A DNA stretch of 31,711 bases from a virus: the IMG/VR virus record IMGVR_UViG_3300006071_001944, positions 1 through 31,711 of that record; one strand, 5' to 3'. Below the pieces are notes generated by a model. That model ran no database searches and had not been told where the DNA came from. It saw nothing but the letters and a program-made list of their open reading frames with translations. How positions within the stretch are numbered: position 1 is the stretch's first letter; each line of letters opens with the position of its first letter. The position numbers and the translations under genes were made by a program. This document shows, piece after piece, positions 6,457 through 31,711 of the stretch.

Positions 6457-7524
6457 TTAGTTAAAATATTTATACCAAATATCTTTAGTTTTAGAGGTGT
6501 ATTCAGTTAAAGAATGTTGGTATTGTAAAATGTTCTCTGTTGGGTATTTATATGTATAATATAATGCGTGTGATATGCTTTTACTGTCAGTAGGGTTAGC
6601 TGTAAAATTGGTAATATTAGAAGTACTATCCATTAACCAAGGTATTTCATTACTACCAACTAATGGTACACCTTGACTGATTAAATCTGCACCAACAATG
6701 TTAAAAGTTTCAGAAAAACTAACTTGTAAACCTATATCCATTTGAGCACATATTGATATAAATTCTTCTCTAGGTACCCAAGTATGTTTAACTAATTGAT
6801 GGCCTTGAGATGTTAAATGTTGAAACAACCCTTGCAAGTTGTGCATAACCGGTTCACCTTTCATTTCTATTCTTCCAGCGTTTATATGAAAACGTAACTT
6901 TTTATTAATACTACTAGCAAAATCTAAAGCACCAAACGCTTGTACTAAATGGTTTTTTAATAATCTTACTGCTCCAAAACAAGCTATATCGATAGTATCT
7001 TTGTCATAGTTAAACTCTTTAGTTTTATAGTCTTGTGGGTAGTAATTTGGCAAATAAATTATTTTATTATCAATTGCATTGTTAGATAATTTTTTAGTCG
7101 ATTTTGCATATAATTTAATTTCTCCTAACATTCTTGGTGCATTACATGCTATTACTATATTTTTATAAGTTAAATAATCCCCTACCCAATCCATTGCCAT
7201 ACCTTCTCCTGCCATAAAAGGCATTTCACTGTGTAATCGTATAATCCACTTTACATCAGGGTGTAATTTTTGTAATACGCTAAATTTAGAAGGCACTACC
7301 CATAAAGCTTCAATAACAACATGTGTAGGTTTATATTGTGTAACTTCTCTATCTATATCATTATTATCAATAACGACAACCATTTTCGATTCTAAACCAT
7401 GATTAACGAGCATGTCGTTCATGAATTTAGCAGAATTATAAAGACCGGTACTCAGCCCAATATGTGAGTGTGTTGCTGCGTTAAAGTCTTCTCTCCGTTT
7501 GAGTATGAAAAGTGTACGTGACAT
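6457..7524 (-). CDS. GT-B glycosyltransferase, GT4-like
   Basis: 355-residue predicted sugar transferase. The C-terminal half has the retaining GT-B donor-site pattern: CFGAVRLLKNH near residues 182-192 resembles the conserved 'G....KN' strand, and S271-E272-T273-F274-N-I-V-G-A-D280 followed by LISQGVPLVGS is the E-x7-E/D motif region that binds the nucleotide sugar. The N-terminal half is a variable acceptor-binding domain. There is no membrane segment or signal peptide, so it is probably cytoplasmic. It could glycosylate DNA bases, virion proteins or host glycans. The nearby Pro/Thr-rich fibres, oxygenases and a second glycosyltransferase make virion decoration plausible but not shown. Confidence 0.82.
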   Translation of the reverse strand: MSRTLFILKRREDFNAATHSHIGLSTGLYNSAKFMNDMLVNHGLESKMVVVIDNNDIDREVTQYKPTHVVIEALWVVPSKFSVLQKLHPDVKWIIRLHSEMPFMAGEGMAMDWVGDYLTYKNIVIACNAPRMLGEIKLYAKSTKKLSNNAIDNKIIYLPNYYPQDYKTKEFNYDKDTIDIACFGAVRLLKNHLVQAFGALDFASSINKKLRFHINAGRIEMKGEPVMHNLQGLFQHLTSQGHQLVKHTWVPREEFISICAQMDIGLQVSFSETFNIVGADLISQGVPLVGSNEIPWLMDSTSNITNFTANPTDSKSISHALYYTYKYPTENILQYQHSLTEYTSKTKDIWYKYFN

Positions 7525-8158: not shown

Positions 8159-8557
8159 CTATTGACCACCAGGTATTAAATCAGAACCTGAAGGCATTGA
8201 TTTACCTTTCGGGTTTTGTTTTAAATCAGCTTCTCTGTTAGCCTTATATTCTTTACGTAACATTTTAGTCATTTCAAAAAACGACTTGTAAGTGTGTTTA
8301 GTCACACCTCGGGCATCATCTGTCATACGCACATAAGTGTTATCACTAAATTTTGCTACGTCTTCTACTTCTCCTGCTGCAACAATTCTAGCTAGACGTA
8401 GAGGGTCGGTTTTAATCTTTTGAAAATCGTATATGACTGTCAGCACTTTCATTTCATCTTCACTGAAAGGCACTTGACGTACCGTTATATCTGGAGTGTA
8501 TTCTACTCCAGATAAACCACTATATATTTCAGATAAGATTTTGTACGAACCACGCAT
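8159..8557 (-). CDS. Hypothetical protein, last gene of sulfation operon
   Basis: 132 residues, not recognised. The first 100 look alpha/beta, and the last 30 are charged, Gly/Ser/Pro-rich and probably disordered. It follows the kinase/nucleotidyltransferase gene by 11 bases and ends just before a strong terminator, so it is the distal gene of that operon. No motif points to a function. Confidence 0.7.
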   Translation of the reverse strand: MRGSYKILSEIYSGLSGVEYTPDITVRQVPFSEDEMKVLTVIYDFQKIKTDPLRLARIVAAGEVEDVAKFSDNTYVRMTDDARGVTKHTYKSFFEMTKMLRKEYKANREADLKQNPKGKSMPSGSDLIPGGQ

Positions 8558-8568
8558 CCATATACTTA

Positions 8569-9342
8569 CTAAGCTTTAAGTATTTCGTTACGTATCTTAG
8601 TAGCAGAAATATCCTGTAAAGCCTTATCTAAGTCTATTTGCTCAATTTTATATCCTACATCTCTACCGTAAAAGATATTAGTAATATTAGGTACTCTAAC
8701 AATAGTGTATTTACCTTCGTACCCCCTCATACCTGTACGTATATTAGCTTCTACTTCATCATTATTGAACGGGTTCTTTTCATCTGTACCTTGTGTATCT
8801 CTAATAGCTATACATACTTGACCGACTCTATTAAGAGCTTCTAAAATAAGAGTTCTATGACCATCATGGAAAGGTTGATAACGACCAAGCATGAAAGCTG
8901 TAGGGGCTTTTGAATTAAATGTAGGTACTAATGCTTTCTTTATTTTGTTAGCCCAATATAAAGGTGTGCCTTCATCTGTTACAGTAATGTCAGGGTTTTC
9001 AGGGGCAACAAATAACTTTGTCGTATCTGCAAAATCCCTAACAGGTGTTCTGTTAATCCAAACAGTGAATATGTTTTCTGTACCAAAAGCAGCTCTTGTT
9101 TCAGGAATAGGACATACAAAATCAGCAATTGCATATTGACCAGATCGCACTGCAATATCGCATAACACACCCATTCTACGGGCTTGTTCGATTCTATCTT
9201 CTGGGCTAAACTTTAAATCTTTATTAATTTCCTTACGAATTTCATCTGCATTAAACCACACAGCCCCTAACATTTTAGACAACTCTTTAGCGAGTGTAGT
9301 TTTACCGGCACCAGGTAATCCCATGATTAGTATTTTTTTCAT
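8569..9342 (-). CDS. APS-kinase-like / NMNAT-like nucleotidyltransferase fusion
   Basis: 257 residues, two domains. Residues 1-140 are a P-loop kinase with Walker A G8-LPGAGKTT. NADEIRKEINKDLKFSPEDR (31-50), then RR and P...R (CPIPETR), follow the order of APS kinase (CysC) motifs D-x-V-R, N-x-DL-x-FS-x-x-DR and fisP-x-R. VAPENPDI matches the YEaPxxPd segment. The product would be PAPS. Residues 148-257 are an HxGH nucleotidyltransferase: GRYQPFHDGH (153-162), NPFNNDE, and ISATKIR (245-251), most like the NadM/NMNAT group. That domain might make NAD, a CDP/ADP compound, or (speculatively) APS. The upstream sulfotransferase, 22 bp away, supports PAPS supply. The kinase-first order is opposite to that of NadR. 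Confidence 0.82.
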   Translation of the reverse strand: MKKILIMGLPGAGKTTLAKELSKMLGAVWFNADEIRKEINKDLKFSPEDRIEQARRMGVLCDIAVRSGQYAIADFVCPIPETRAAFGTENIFTVWINRTPVRDFADTTKLFVAPENPDITVTDEGTPLYWANKIKKALVPTFNSKAPTAFMLGRYQPFHDGHRTLILEALNRVGQVCIAIRDTQGTDEKNPFNNDEVEANIRTGMRGYEGKYTIVRVPNITNIFYGRDVGYKIEQIDLDKALQDISATKIRNEILKA

Positions 9343-9364
9343 AATATATACGATTTAGTACGTA

Positions 9365-10018
9365 TTAGTTAGTTTTCCAGCTGTCTTTATCGTAACCAAA
9401 TAAATTAAATTGATTTGTACATTTACTATAAACAAAGTCTGCTATTTCTTGATTATAATAATGTTGCCAATCTGTAATTTTTTTATCTGAATTTATATCT
9501 TTTTTTAATACACCGACTCCTTTTTGAGCCCAATAATAATTTTTGGAAATGTATGTTTTATACGCGTTTGCAATTACAGGGTTGTTTAAATCTAAGAATG
9601 GTATTTTTTTTATATCATCTTCTAAAAATTCATATCTAATAGCTATATATGGTTCAGCGGTAAGCTTTTTTGCGTGTGTTAATAAACGTTCTTCACCGTA
9701 AGGATCAATAATACCTCTTTTTATAAAATCATTAAAAGTAAACGTATTAATGTTTAAATTATTATGCCAACAACTCCAATACCACAACGAAACAGCCCGG
9801 GAATACGGATTACGAATATTTACTATTAATGTATAGTTTTGTGTGTTTTCAGGAAAACCTATAGTATGTACGTATTCATAACCTTCAGGCATAGAAATAT
9901 GTTGCATTTCAGGATCCATAGGCTTAAACCCGTAATGTTCAAATATCTTCCACACCGGTCTTGTACCACAACGTGGTAGTGCCCACCATACACATTTGTG
10001 TGTGCGTGACACATTCAT
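9365..10018 (-). CDS. PAPS-dependent sulfotransferase-like protein
   Basis: 217-residue predicted sulfotransferase that would move sulfate from PAPS to a hydroxyl or amine. The 5'-phosphosulfate loop is P15-R-C-G-T-R20 (ALPRCGTRPVW). The 3'-phosphate site is R69-N-P-Y-S-R-A-V-S77. RYEFLEDDIKKIP gives the later 'yE.l..D' segment, and the C-terminus (YYNQEIADFVYS...FNLFGYDKDSW) is the usual ending of Sulfotransfer_2-type enzymes. No membrane segment, so it is probably a soluble phage version of enzymes that are membrane-anchored in eukaryotes. It starts three bases after the prolyl-hydroxylase-like gene and is followed by the APS-kinase-like gene, which could supply its donor. The acceptor is unknown: glycan, tyrosine, hydroxyproline or a small molecule. 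Confidence 0.8.
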   Translation of the reverse strand: MNVSRTHKCVWWALPRCGTRPVWKIFEHYGFKPMDPEMQHISMPEGYEYVHTIGFPENTQNYTLIVNIRNPYSRAVSLWYWSCWHNNLNINTFTFNDFIKRGIIDPYGEERLLTHAKKLTAEPYIAIRYEFLEDDIKKIPFLDLNNPVIANAYKTYISKNYYWAQKGVGVLKKDINSDKKITDWQHYYNQEIADFVYSKCTNQFNLFGYDKDSWKTN

Positions 10019-10021
10019 TAC

Positions 10022-10678
10022 TTATAAACCTAGTTGAACTAGGTGAGATATTAACCAATTCGATCTGTTTTCATCTAATAGTTTATCATCTGTAACCCAT
10101 ATAGGTAACGTTACCCTATTACCACCAACTACTTTATTTACCCCGTGTTCGTTAGTTTCATCGCTTAAAAAAAACACAACTGAACCGGTTTTTGGAGAAC
10201 TAATATAATCTGTACCAGTTTCATTTGCAATAAAAGTTTCTCCCCCTGTATAGTCATCGTTTAAGTATGTTACAGTACTCACTTTTCTTGAAGCCATTTG
10301 TTGTTGGTCTTTGCCATCTGAATAACCGTTGTCTTTATGCTTTAACATAAATCTACCTTCTCTCCACAACACGAGATCTGTAAATCTTGGGTAAAGCGAC
10401 TTGTTATACACTTTACTTGCTAACTCTACTACGTAGTTTCTATGTTTGTTTATTTTTTTCTTCAATTCAATATCTGTAAAATTAACCCAATCAAACGTGT
10501 CTCCTTTAGCATTTACTTTTACTTTTTCATCAACCCATGGCAAAGAATTCGCATTATAATCTTTAATTGAAATATTCTTTATTTTGTACATTTCATTACA
10601 TATTTGTGCACATGTTTCTCTGTCTAAAACATCATCAAATCTAAAAATAGTTTTACACCCTGTTTCTACTTGTTGCAT
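10022..10678 (-). CDS. Prolyl-4-hydroxylase-like 2OG-Fe(II) oxygenase
   Basis: 218 residues. The iron ligands are H114-x-D116 (LKHKDNGYS) and H178 (NEHGVNKV), with R188 (GNRVTLPIW) for 2-oxoglutarate. VTYLNDDYTGGETFI and PKTGSVVFF are the diagnostic strands of the P4Hc group. The length agrees with phage and bacterial P4H-like enzymes. The gene is three bases from the sulfotransferase gene, with a late-promoter-like octamer five bases before its ATG. Possible substrates are proline residues in the Pro/Thr-rich and collagen-like fibre proteins of this phage, or a host protein. The collagen-like repeats here are Gly-X-Ser, with few prolines, so the Pro/Thr linkers fit better. Confidence 0.85.
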   Translation of the reverse strand: MQQVETGCKTIFRFDDVLDRETCAQICNEMYKIKNISIKDYNANSLPWVDEKVKVNAKGDTFDWVNFTDIELKKKINKHRNYVVELASKVYNKSLYPRFTDLVLWREGRFMLKHKDNGYSDGKDQQQMASRKVSTVTYLNDDYTGGETFIANETGTDYISSPKTGSVVFFLSDETNEHGVNKVVGGNRVTLPIWVTDDKLLDENRSNWLISHLVQLGL

Positions 10679-10697: not shown

Positions 10698-11543
10698 TTA
10701 TTTTTTGCCAGCTTTGCCTCTACGCATATTAGCTTGCCAATGTGCGAGTTGTTTTTTACGAGGGCTAGCTGTTTTGCTATGTACTATTTTGTCTAATGCT
10801 GCTAAAGTAGTATGTTTCTTAATACCGTGTCTTTTACTATCACCAGGACGTCCCGGTCCTTTATGATTTAAAAAGTTTTCTCCAATATTATCTCCTACAG
10901 AAGCTGCTGCACCGCCATCCGCGTTCACGTCAGGCGCGATTTCACTAGTAGCACTAGAAGGGTCAGCGTCATCTTCATCGAGTTCTTCTGGTTCATTACC
11001 TGCTAAAATTGCTTTTAAATCTTTTAGAGCACCACTACCACCTTTCCAGGCACTAGGGCCGGTTATTAAATATTGATACTGTAGTTCAGGGGTGGCATTA
11101 ACCGCTGCATCCAAATCTGTAGGCTCTATACCTGCATCTCTAATCGAATCTGCCATTGCTTTCACTAAATCTTTATCAACAGGTTTACTCCAATTGTGGT
11201 TAACCGCTAGATCTTCTAAATCTCCTATAACGTCATATATAATTTGTCTTTTATCAATTTCCTCATCAACTACTCCAATATCAGTTGTTTCGTCGTTTTC
11301 ATCTGCATATTCACCTTCTTGTACACCCGTTTGATCACCATTCATACCGGGCATGTTAGGTGCATATGCAGGGTCTTCTTTTATTACACTGTTATAAAAT
11401 TCTTTAAAAGTTTTAGGTTTAGTAGACTCATGCGCATTTATGTGCAATGCTGCAAGGTACTTTTTTACAGAGCCTTTCGTACAACCTACCTTTTTACCGG
11501 TATCTTTTTTATAAACACATTTTCCTCGTACTTTCCAGGGCAT
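10698..11543 (-). CDS. Phage protein with basic Cys tag and acidic middle
   Basis: 281 residues. It opens with KGKCVYKKDTGKKVGCTKGS-type sequence (residues 7-26), a short basic two-cysteine tag that I recall from proteins of marine T4-like phages. The middle is acidic and low in complexity (EEPEELDEDDAD-like stretches), and the C-terminus is strongly basic (ASPRKKQLAHWQANMRRGK). The split charge pattern suggests a scaffold-like or nucleic-acid-binding virion component. No enzyme motif is present. It lies 10 bases after the 98-residue protein and 19 bases before the hydroxylase gene, within one minus-strand operon. Confidence 0.75.
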   Translation of the reverse strand: MPWKVRGKCVYKKDTGKKVGCTKGSVKKYLAALHINAHESTKPKTFKEFYNSVIKEDPAYAPNMPGMNGDQTGVQEGEYADENDETTDIGVVDEEIDKRQIIYDVIGDLEDLAVNHNWSKPVDKDLVKAMADSIRDAGIEPTDLDAAVNATPELQYQYLITGPSAWKGGSGALKDLKAILAGNEPEELDEDDADPSSATSEIAPDVNADGGAAASVGDNIGENFLNHKGPGRPGDSKRHGIKKHTTLAALDKIVHSKTASPRKKQLAHWQANMRRGKAGKK

Positions 11544-30668: not shown

Positions 30669-31711
30669 TTACTTAAATGTTGCAAGAGACTCTAGAACAA
30701 TATAAGTTGGAGTGTTATCTATCTTAGTTACAGATACTGTGTAGCAGTCATATGATGAAGAGTTGCCAGATGAAGGAGCTGAACCGCCTTGCCAAGACGG
30801 TGTAACAGGCGTGCCGTCAATTTGTAATACTGTTTGGTAATACGGTGTTGAGTTGTTTTTAACTAACAGTGCTACTGTTATGGTTTGATTTACACCTAAA
30901 GTAGCATTTAATGTAGTAGTACTATTACCTCTTAAATTGAGAGTCCAATTGTTTGCTGTATTAGCAGTATAATACTGTATACCCTGATTTAATGTATCAT
31001 AATTAATTGTAACGCTTGGAGCACTTGCCGTATTAACTGTATTCTCTAAAATAGTAGACTCTGTAACAGTACCAGTATAGGTTGCATTTGTACCATTATA
31101 GTTGACAGCAGATAATGAATATGCTGATAAACTTTGATGTATTACGTTACTAGTAGTATTGAGTGTTTGATTAGCACCTGGACCCGAATAACCTGATATA
31201 CCAGAATAACCTGATATACCAGAATAACCAGATGTACCGGACCAACCAGAGGTGCCACTAAAACCTGATACACCAGAATAACCTGATACACCAGACCAAC
31301 CGGACGTACCACTGACTCCTGATACACCACTATAACCTGATATACCACTTGTACCAGATATACCACTAAAGCCTGATGTACCGGAGTAGCCAGATATACC
31401 AGTACCGGAATAACCACTTATACCTGAAGTACCGCTCCATCCAGAAGTGCCACTAACACCTGATACACCAGAATAACCTGATTGACCACCTTTACCAGCT
31501 ACTTCTATTTCAAACCAAGGGTCATCATTACCGGTAAAATCTGTATTAGCGTTTACACCGATAGTGCCACCGTTAAAGCTTGTTAATTGCAATGCGACTT
31601 GCGTATTTACACCCGGTGTGATTGTTGCTTGAGCTATACCACCGAAAGCTATATAACCAGCTGCATCAGAAGCACTGTATACATCAGCAACACTACCTAT
31701 AGCTGTAGAAG
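30669..31711 (-). CDS. Collagen-like fibre protein, 5' end beyond window
   Basis: The frame is open to the right edge. A start can be forced at 31592 (TTG), but coding-like sequence continues upstream ([16 protein letters not shown], then [18 protein letters not shown]), so the gene begins outside the window. The visible part has an N-terminal beta domain, about 100 residues of Gly-X-Ser triplets ([19 protein letters not shown] type), and a C-terminal beta domain of about 150 residues. Collagen-like (GXS)n stalks of this kind are frequent in fibres of large phages and probably form trimers. Few prolines lie in the triplets, so stability must come from elsewhere. It is the most upstream gene seen of the fibre block. 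Confidence 0.85.
31180..31487 (-). repeat. Collagen-like Gly-X-Ser coding repeat
   Basis: About 300 bases of 9-base-based repeats encoding Gly-(Y/V/T/W/I/F)-Ser triplets. Neighbouring units are similar enough for recombination and copy-number change. Confidence 0.9.

Follow-up and report, generated by a model that had tools for sequence, protein, structure and literature searches.

What a virus would gain from an oxygenase, a sulfotransferase and a kinase packed end to end is the question raised by one locus of IMG/VR virus record IMGVR_UViG_3300006071_001944, analysed here as a single stretch of 31,711 nucleotides (a 31.7-kb virus record, hereafter the window). The cluster is transcribed from the minus strand in the order 2-oxoglutarate (2OG)-Fe(II) oxygenase, sulfotransferase-like open reading frame (ORF) and kinase fusion, with gaps of 3 and 22 bases. 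An earlier note on this DNA had read the three genes as a hydroxylate-then-sulfate pathway that supplies its own sulfate donor, and its gene order and gaps agree with the coordinates given below. Homologues of the fusion were sought among phages, viral contigs and bacterial genomes. The answer that we favour, at a probability of roughly two in three, is that the fusion is a compact bifunctional synthetase of 3'-phosphoadenosine 5'-phosphosulfate (PAPS), made by way of adenosine 5'-phosphosulfate (APS), which feeds the adjacent sulfotransferase. The features concerned are as follows.

8569..9342, minus strand: kinase fusion of 257 amino acids (aa), a CysC-like kinase (residues 1-141) joined to an HxGH adenylyltransferase (residues ~147-257)
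8920..9342, minus strand: APS-kinase-like domain of the fusion, with P-loop GLPGAGKT, NADEIR, DLKFSPEDR and DFVCP; lid shortened
8572..8904, minus strand: HxGH adenylyltransferase domain of the fusion, candidate ATP sulfurylase, with GRYQPFHDGH, YGRDVGY and ISATKIR
9365..10018, minus strand: sulfotransferase-like protein of 217 aa, with 5'-phosphosulfate-binding (5'-PSB) loop PRCGTR and 3'-phosphate-binding (3'-PB) loop RNPYSRAVS
10022..10678, minus strand: 2OG-Fe(II) oxygenase of 218 aa, prolyl 4-hydroxylase (P4H)-like (PF13640, 50.5 bits; phrog_61, E 6e-19)

In the proposed mechanism, the C-terminal HxGH domain would adenylylate sulfate (ATP + sulfate -> APS + pyrophosphate, PPi), the N-terminal CysC-like domain would phosphorylate the product (ATP + APS -> PAPS + ADP), and the PAPS would pass to the adjacent sulfotransferase, yielding a sulfated glycan or protein of the virion or the host. 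The proposal draws on residue conservation, the fold (for the kinase half) and gene context; the two enzyme activities are inferred, as are the acceptor and any cooperation with the oxygenase.

Residues 4-85 of the fusion match APS kinase PF01583 at 53 bits against a cut-off of 21.1, and the whole protein matches phrog_10255, annotated as 'kinase' only, over its full length. The search for homologues gave 59 viral loci, among them one identical contig. An AlphaFold2 model built from an alignment of 33 sequences reached a mean predicted local distance difference test (pLDDT) score of 85, and in the structural comparison with CysC that the earlier note had proposed, its kinase domain superposed on APS kinases with Z scores of about 20 (3uie: Z 20.1, 1.7 A over 141 residues, 29% identity), the best non-APS kinases, gluconate kinases, scoring lower (Z 17.2). 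The side chains that hold APS in Mycobacterium tuberculosis CysC are Asp480, Arg483, Phe492 and Arg497 (PMC4373884). These correspond to D33, R36, F45 and R50 of the fusion, since the DxxR and DLxF...DR motifs are common to both proteins, and the four residues are invariant in 33 of 33 sequences, as are all APS-contact side chains outside the lid. The CysC-like motifs named by the earlier note are borne out, and the kinase half very probably makes PAPS.

The second domain had been left unnamed by the earlier note. Residues 151-193 match the HxGH family PF01467 (26.1 bits against a cut-off of 21), and the domain also passes the superfamily cut-off of TIGR00125 (29.3 bits against 27.7). Its HxGH, GRD and SATxxR motifs are all invariant in the 33-row phage alignment, and the domain is as conserved as the kinase across these sequences. 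ATP sulfurylases carry the loops QxRNxxHxxH, GRD and SGTxxR (PMC3779200), and the Sat-type HxxH, GRD and SGTxxR pattern is present in the HxGH domain, with Gly changed to Ala in the last loop. We think it likely that the domain makes (or breaks down) APS; as a candidate ATP sulfurylase it would turn the fusion into a whole PAPS synthetase, which goes beyond the earlier claim. What is claimed is that the fusion functions like a PAPS synthetase; membership in Sat or CysC is not claimed, because neither half reaches any equivalog cut-off.

The neighbourhoods of the homologues point to the same role in sulfate activation, through a CysC fusion, cysH and cysI, DUF2061, nodPQ-like genes, aprBA and linkage to sulfotransferases. 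In an OCS116 bacterium (L107, 310 aa) and a gammaproteobacterium (L108), the HxGH domain, at 46% identity, is fused to a canonical CysC, the CysC part of L107 scoring 243 bits with TIGR00455, above the cut-off; a second OCS116-family genome holds another 310-aa frame with the HxGH domain. In an alphaproteobacterium (L104), separate kinase and HxGH genes follow cysG, a cysI-like gene, cysH and DUF2061. Kinase and HxGH are likewise separate genes in a member of the Pelagibacteraceae (L105), close to aprB and aprA. In Microvirga zambiensis (L090), a stretch of nodJ and a sulfotransferase gene, nodH, is followed by the fusion, then CysD and CysN::DUF2061. Of 49 viral records with the kinase, 38 also have DUF2061, typically directly after the kinase. 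As an observation in its own right, the CysN of L090 (L090:9733-11319) has a C-terminal DUF2061-like stretch, which directly ties this uncharacterised membrane domain to sulfate activation. The HxGH domain was also considered as the sole ATP sulfurylase of OCS116 bacteria; this was set aside, the domain occurring in only 2 of 18 family genomes, with no profile possible.

The kinase also has sulfotransferases for neighbours, of several kinds that are unrelated to one another, both in viruses (L017/L018, L019, L024, L046, L054/L057, L111, L112) and in bacteria (L089, L090, L095, L103, L110), and the sulfotransferase family of L046 stands beside the kinase at all three of its viral-contig loci, L046 included. 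Of 50 viral records that carry the kinase, 16 have Sulfotransfer_1 (PF00685), against 0 of 50 phage records taken as controls (Fisher 4e-6; 6e-4 after duplicates were collapsed by hand); two of the 50 kinase-bearing records came from a sulfotransferase search, and excluding them left 14 of 48 (Fisher 1.5e-5). At L019:5147-5992, directly upstream of the kinase, an N-terminal stretch like that of adjacent virion-type genes (MAYFAQLNENNIV...) is joined to a sulfotransferase-like domain. That a phage supplies its own sulfate donor, as first proposed, is now the best explanation of the locus, given the retained APS-contact residues and the repeated coupling to sulfotransferases and to sulfate or APS genes in unrelated genomes.

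The sulfotransferase-like protein of the window itself matched Pfam families only below threshold (PF03567, E 0.0029, 18.2 bits against 22; PF00685, E 0.0099, 15.7 bits, below cut-off). Both loops named by the earlier note are there, PRCGT at residue 15 and RNPYSRAVS at 69, properly spaced, and the loose pattern occurred in 0 of 1633 shuffled proteins. A hidden Markov model (HMM) built from ten other phage and bacterial sulfotransferases failed to tell the protein apart from shuffled sequences, so that the assignment draws on the motif pair and the weak Pfam matches; a single-sequence structure model had a pLDDT of 35, too low for fold comparison. Searches of phages, viral contigs and bacterial genomes gave no relatives apart from one identical contig. 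The protein probably uses PAPS. The role of phage sulfotransferases has been called unclear (PMC10580990).

The distribution of the HxGH domain in SAR11 bears on the adenylylating step. Most SAR11 are stated to have no ATP sulfurylase, though APS reductase is present (PMC10356861). Across 247 Pelagibacteraceae genomes, the HxGH domain was found in 158, AprA in 136 and both in 124 (Fisher 4e-24, uncorrected for kinship); many of these genomes are incomplete, and the counts and Fisher values ignore shared ancestry, which tempers the support that they lend. HxGH and AprA lay on one contig in 68 pairs, 55 of them within 6 kb. Sat was present in only 10 of the 247 genomes, and in 117 AprA and the HxGH domain occur together without it. 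Because it co-occurs with AprA, mostly where Sat is absent, the HxGH protein is the best candidate for the missing ATP sulfurylase step in SAR11. The split kinase and HxGH genes occur with AprA in 119 of 129 genomes and the fused form in only 3 of 21; given this difference, one enzyme family may serve two distinct roles within SAR11.

Several results weigh against a bifunctional PAPS synthetase. The kinase scores 48.2 bits with the CysC equivalog model TIGR00455, below its cut-off of 138.7, and is therefore not filed as a CysC equivalog. Its lid is shorter than the 30-residue APS-kinase lid with Arg559, Lys562 and Phe576; K109 (26 of 33 sequences) and the aromatic residue at 111 (F or W, 33 of 33) may, tentatively, replace the lid Lys and Phe. 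In the HxGH domain, the QxRN loop of Sat with its sulfate-binding Arg is replaced by GR(Y/F/W)QP. No ATP sulfurylase was among the PDB profile matches of this domain, an hhalign comparison with a real Sat gave 5%, and PF01747 (Sat) is not among the Pfam matches listed for the fusion. The genome of L104 also has Sat, and CysD is present in L090 and several others among the 25 bacterial genomes searched, so that some carriers do not depend on the HxGH domain for ATP sulfurylase activity. With the Sat sulfate-binding Arg absent and Sat or CysD held by some bacterial carriers, sulfate adenylylation is the weakest of the proposed steps. Finally, no annotated sulfotransferase was seen in two isolate lineages within the stretches read; in Casjensviridae (Stenotrophomonas phage Bhz60, L068:7559-8735), the kinase fusion comes after a NADAR-domain gene, with no sulfotransferase annotated in the stretches read.

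Some of these points favour a reading in which the kinase half alone serves sulfate activation, turning host APS into PAPS, and the HxGH domain is regulatory, performs another adenylyl transfer or is a vestige. The lack of a detectable link between the domain and Sat fits it, as do the CysD-bearing genomes and Sat in genome G072, and at L090:7553-8335 the HxGH motif of the fusion is decayed (HESH, GLDLGY) beside intact CysD/CysN, as if the second domain were dispensable. We consider this unlikely, however, because the HxGH domain is the very part that is fused to canonical CysC in L107 and L108, is conserved to the same degree as the kinase across the 33 sequences from phages, and accompanies AprA in SAR11 genomes that have no Sat.

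The nearest sequence matches of the HxGH domain suggest yet another function, its profile matching nicotinamide mononucleotide (NMN) adenylyltransferases in the PDB (2qjt, E 5e-11; 1f9a, E 8e-9). On this account, the kinase would phosphorylate nicotinamide riboside and the NadM-like domain would convert NMN to nicotinamide adenine dinucleotide (NAD), as in NadR-like salvage or anti-defence with the domains reversed, and the NADAR gene ahead of the Casjensviridae fusion would suit it. The kinase, however, retains the APS-contact residues and resembles APS kinases rather than NadR kinases by both sequence and fold; the HxGH domain falls below every NMN adenylyltransferase equivalog cut-off (31.7 bits against 181.2 for the NadM model TIGR01527) and has ~110 aa against 168 for the NadM-type 1f9a; and the neighbourhoods hold sulfur genes, not NAD genes. 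A role in NAD metabolism is accordingly very improbable, and PAPS synthesis is retained as the preferred function of the fusion.

For the comparison with related phages, three further features are needed.

9365..10678, minus strand: two-gene insertion (oxygenase and sulfotransferase), absent at this place in four related lineages
10698..11543, minus strand: upstream neighbour of the cluster, conserved, directly abutting the kinase in relatives
8159..8557, minus strand: 132-aa ORF, the next gene downstream of the kinase fusion, conserved in relatives and outside the proposed pathway

In four related lineages (L005/L006, L011-L014/L020, L145 and L148), the kinase keeps its place but directly follows the upstream gene, about 26-30 bases away, and both the oxygenase and the sulfotransferase are missing. 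From the gene order, these two are an insertion beside a pre-existing conserved kinase. The exact order oxygenase-sulfotransferase-kinase was found in no other virus, and a lack of conservation in relatives, named by the earlier note as a ground for refutation, is what was seen: the kinase stays and the other two genes are absent. Phages L011-L014 have a different sulfotransferase elsewhere in the genome, next to a glycosyltransferase, and the accessory genes adjoining the kinase in related phages are glycosyltransferases, which makes a glycan a plausible sulfate acceptor. At L004:7432-11838, a glycosyltransferase cluster and a UDP-galactopyranose-mutase-like protein follow the kinase, suggesting phage-made glycans. 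A chance neighbourhood, raised by relatives with the kinase and no sulfotransferase, was considered and dropped, as unrelated sulfotransferases, DUF2061, cysH, aprBA and nodPQ-like genes adjoin kinase homologues.

The oxygenase is assigned from its sequence: PF13640 is matched at 50.5 bits against a cut-off of 27, the HKD and distal H...R residues of the HxD..H/R signature reported earlier are in the sequence, and the best PDB match is prolyl 3-hydroxylase 1 (E 7e-5); no close viral relative was found. A second 2OG-Fe(II) oxygenase-like protein (phrog_274/61; PF13640 20.5 bits, below cut-off) lies at 1247-2014 on the minus strand. In the full pathway first envisaged, the oxygenase would hydroxylate a fibre residue, the sulfotransferase would sulfate that hydroxyl and the kinase would supply PAPS. 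The tight three-gene cluster speaks for it, and oxygenases also occur near the kinase in L095 (AspH-type, overlapping), L097, DLP_6 and L145; these, however, do not belong to one family, and oxygenases are frequent in phages of this sort (cyanophage relatives). The collagen-like tail fibre at 30669-31592 (minus strand) has Gly-X-Ser repeats, and its repeat region holds 33 Ser, 8 Thr, 8 Tyr and one Pro. With a single proline, prolyl hydroxylation of the repeat is unlikely, and with so many Ser, Thr and Tyr residues sulfation would be feasible without any hydroxylation. The same repeats are rich in Tyr, Thr, Val and Ile and nearly proline-free. Since the gene order is not conserved and no sign of a shared substrate was seen, hydroxylation followed by sulfation is unsupported, and the complete three-enzyme pathway is distinctly improbable. 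A common substrate for the two enzymes, oxygenase and sulfotransferase, is itself unlikely; the oxygenase may act on that of the sulfotransferase or on another.

Among known systems, the fusion shares its domain order with human PAPSS1/2, in which APS kinase is N-terminal and ATP sulfurylase C-terminal; the pair of reactions proposed is the same, and the kinase domain superposes. The model of the whole protein can be aligned with 1xjq/1x6v over its entire length, although the domain orientation differs (root-mean-square deviation 18 A). It differs in having 257 aa against about 600, a NadM-like HxGH domain of ~110 aa without PF01747, and a shortened lid. With CysC, including phage cysC, it shares the P-loop, DxxR and DL(G/K)FSxxDR motifs and the APS contacts, whereas it falls below the equivalog cut-off, has a truncated lid, is fused to HxGH and keeps company with sulfotransferases, not with genes of reductive assimilation. 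The GR(F/Y)QPFHxGH motif and the first half of the fold are those of NadM-type NMN adenylyltransferases (1f9a, 2qjt), from which the HxGH domain is set apart by a nearly invariant YGRDVGYKIE stretch, its ~110-aa length and its sulfur gene context. With Sat it has in common the HxxH, GRD and S(G/A)TxxR loops, and the reaction proposed is that of Sat or CysDN, but there is no detectable sequence relation and the RNP-loop Arg is absent. The rhizobial nodH-nodPQ cluster for Nod-factor sulfation likewise places PAPS-making enzymes beside a sulfotransferase, and the L090 fusion lies inside such a cluster; NodPQ, however, makes APS with CysD/CysN, whereas the phage has a single small protein.

Stand-alone phage cysC genes have been reported as auxiliary metabolic genes (PMC8190135, PMC12713726), and phage cysC and phage sulfotransferases are already known, separately. 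In a limited literature search, no phage PAPS synthetase, no description of this fusion as such and no HxGH domain as ATP sulfurylase were found. We lean slightly towards the broader proposal that the NadM-like HxGH domain of ~110 aa is a third, unrecognised ATP sulfurylase family. Fused to a short APS kinase, it would make up the smallest PAPS synthetase known, which phages would have spread as a supply for their sulfotransferases; as a separate gene beside aprBA, it would complete SAR11 sulfite oxidation (APS + PPi -> ATP + sulfate). If this is true, phages come with a whole enzyme for sulfate activation and use it to sulfate some target in the course of infection, and a new ATP sulfurylase family, present in 158 of the 247 sampled SAR11-family genomes, fills the stated gap (PMC10356861).

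Within the window, the span 8159-10678 assigned to the operon by the earlier note does contain the three genes, and its start at 8159 also takes in a fourth, the 132-aa ORF at 8159-8557 (minus strand), which had no match in Pfam or PHROG scans. With PADLOC, the P-loop matches were weak, and the one other match was to a 2OG model of generic type. Further downstream on the minus strand, a glycosyltransferase-like gene at 6457-7524 (phrog_2170, weak) is kept in the syntenic relatives.

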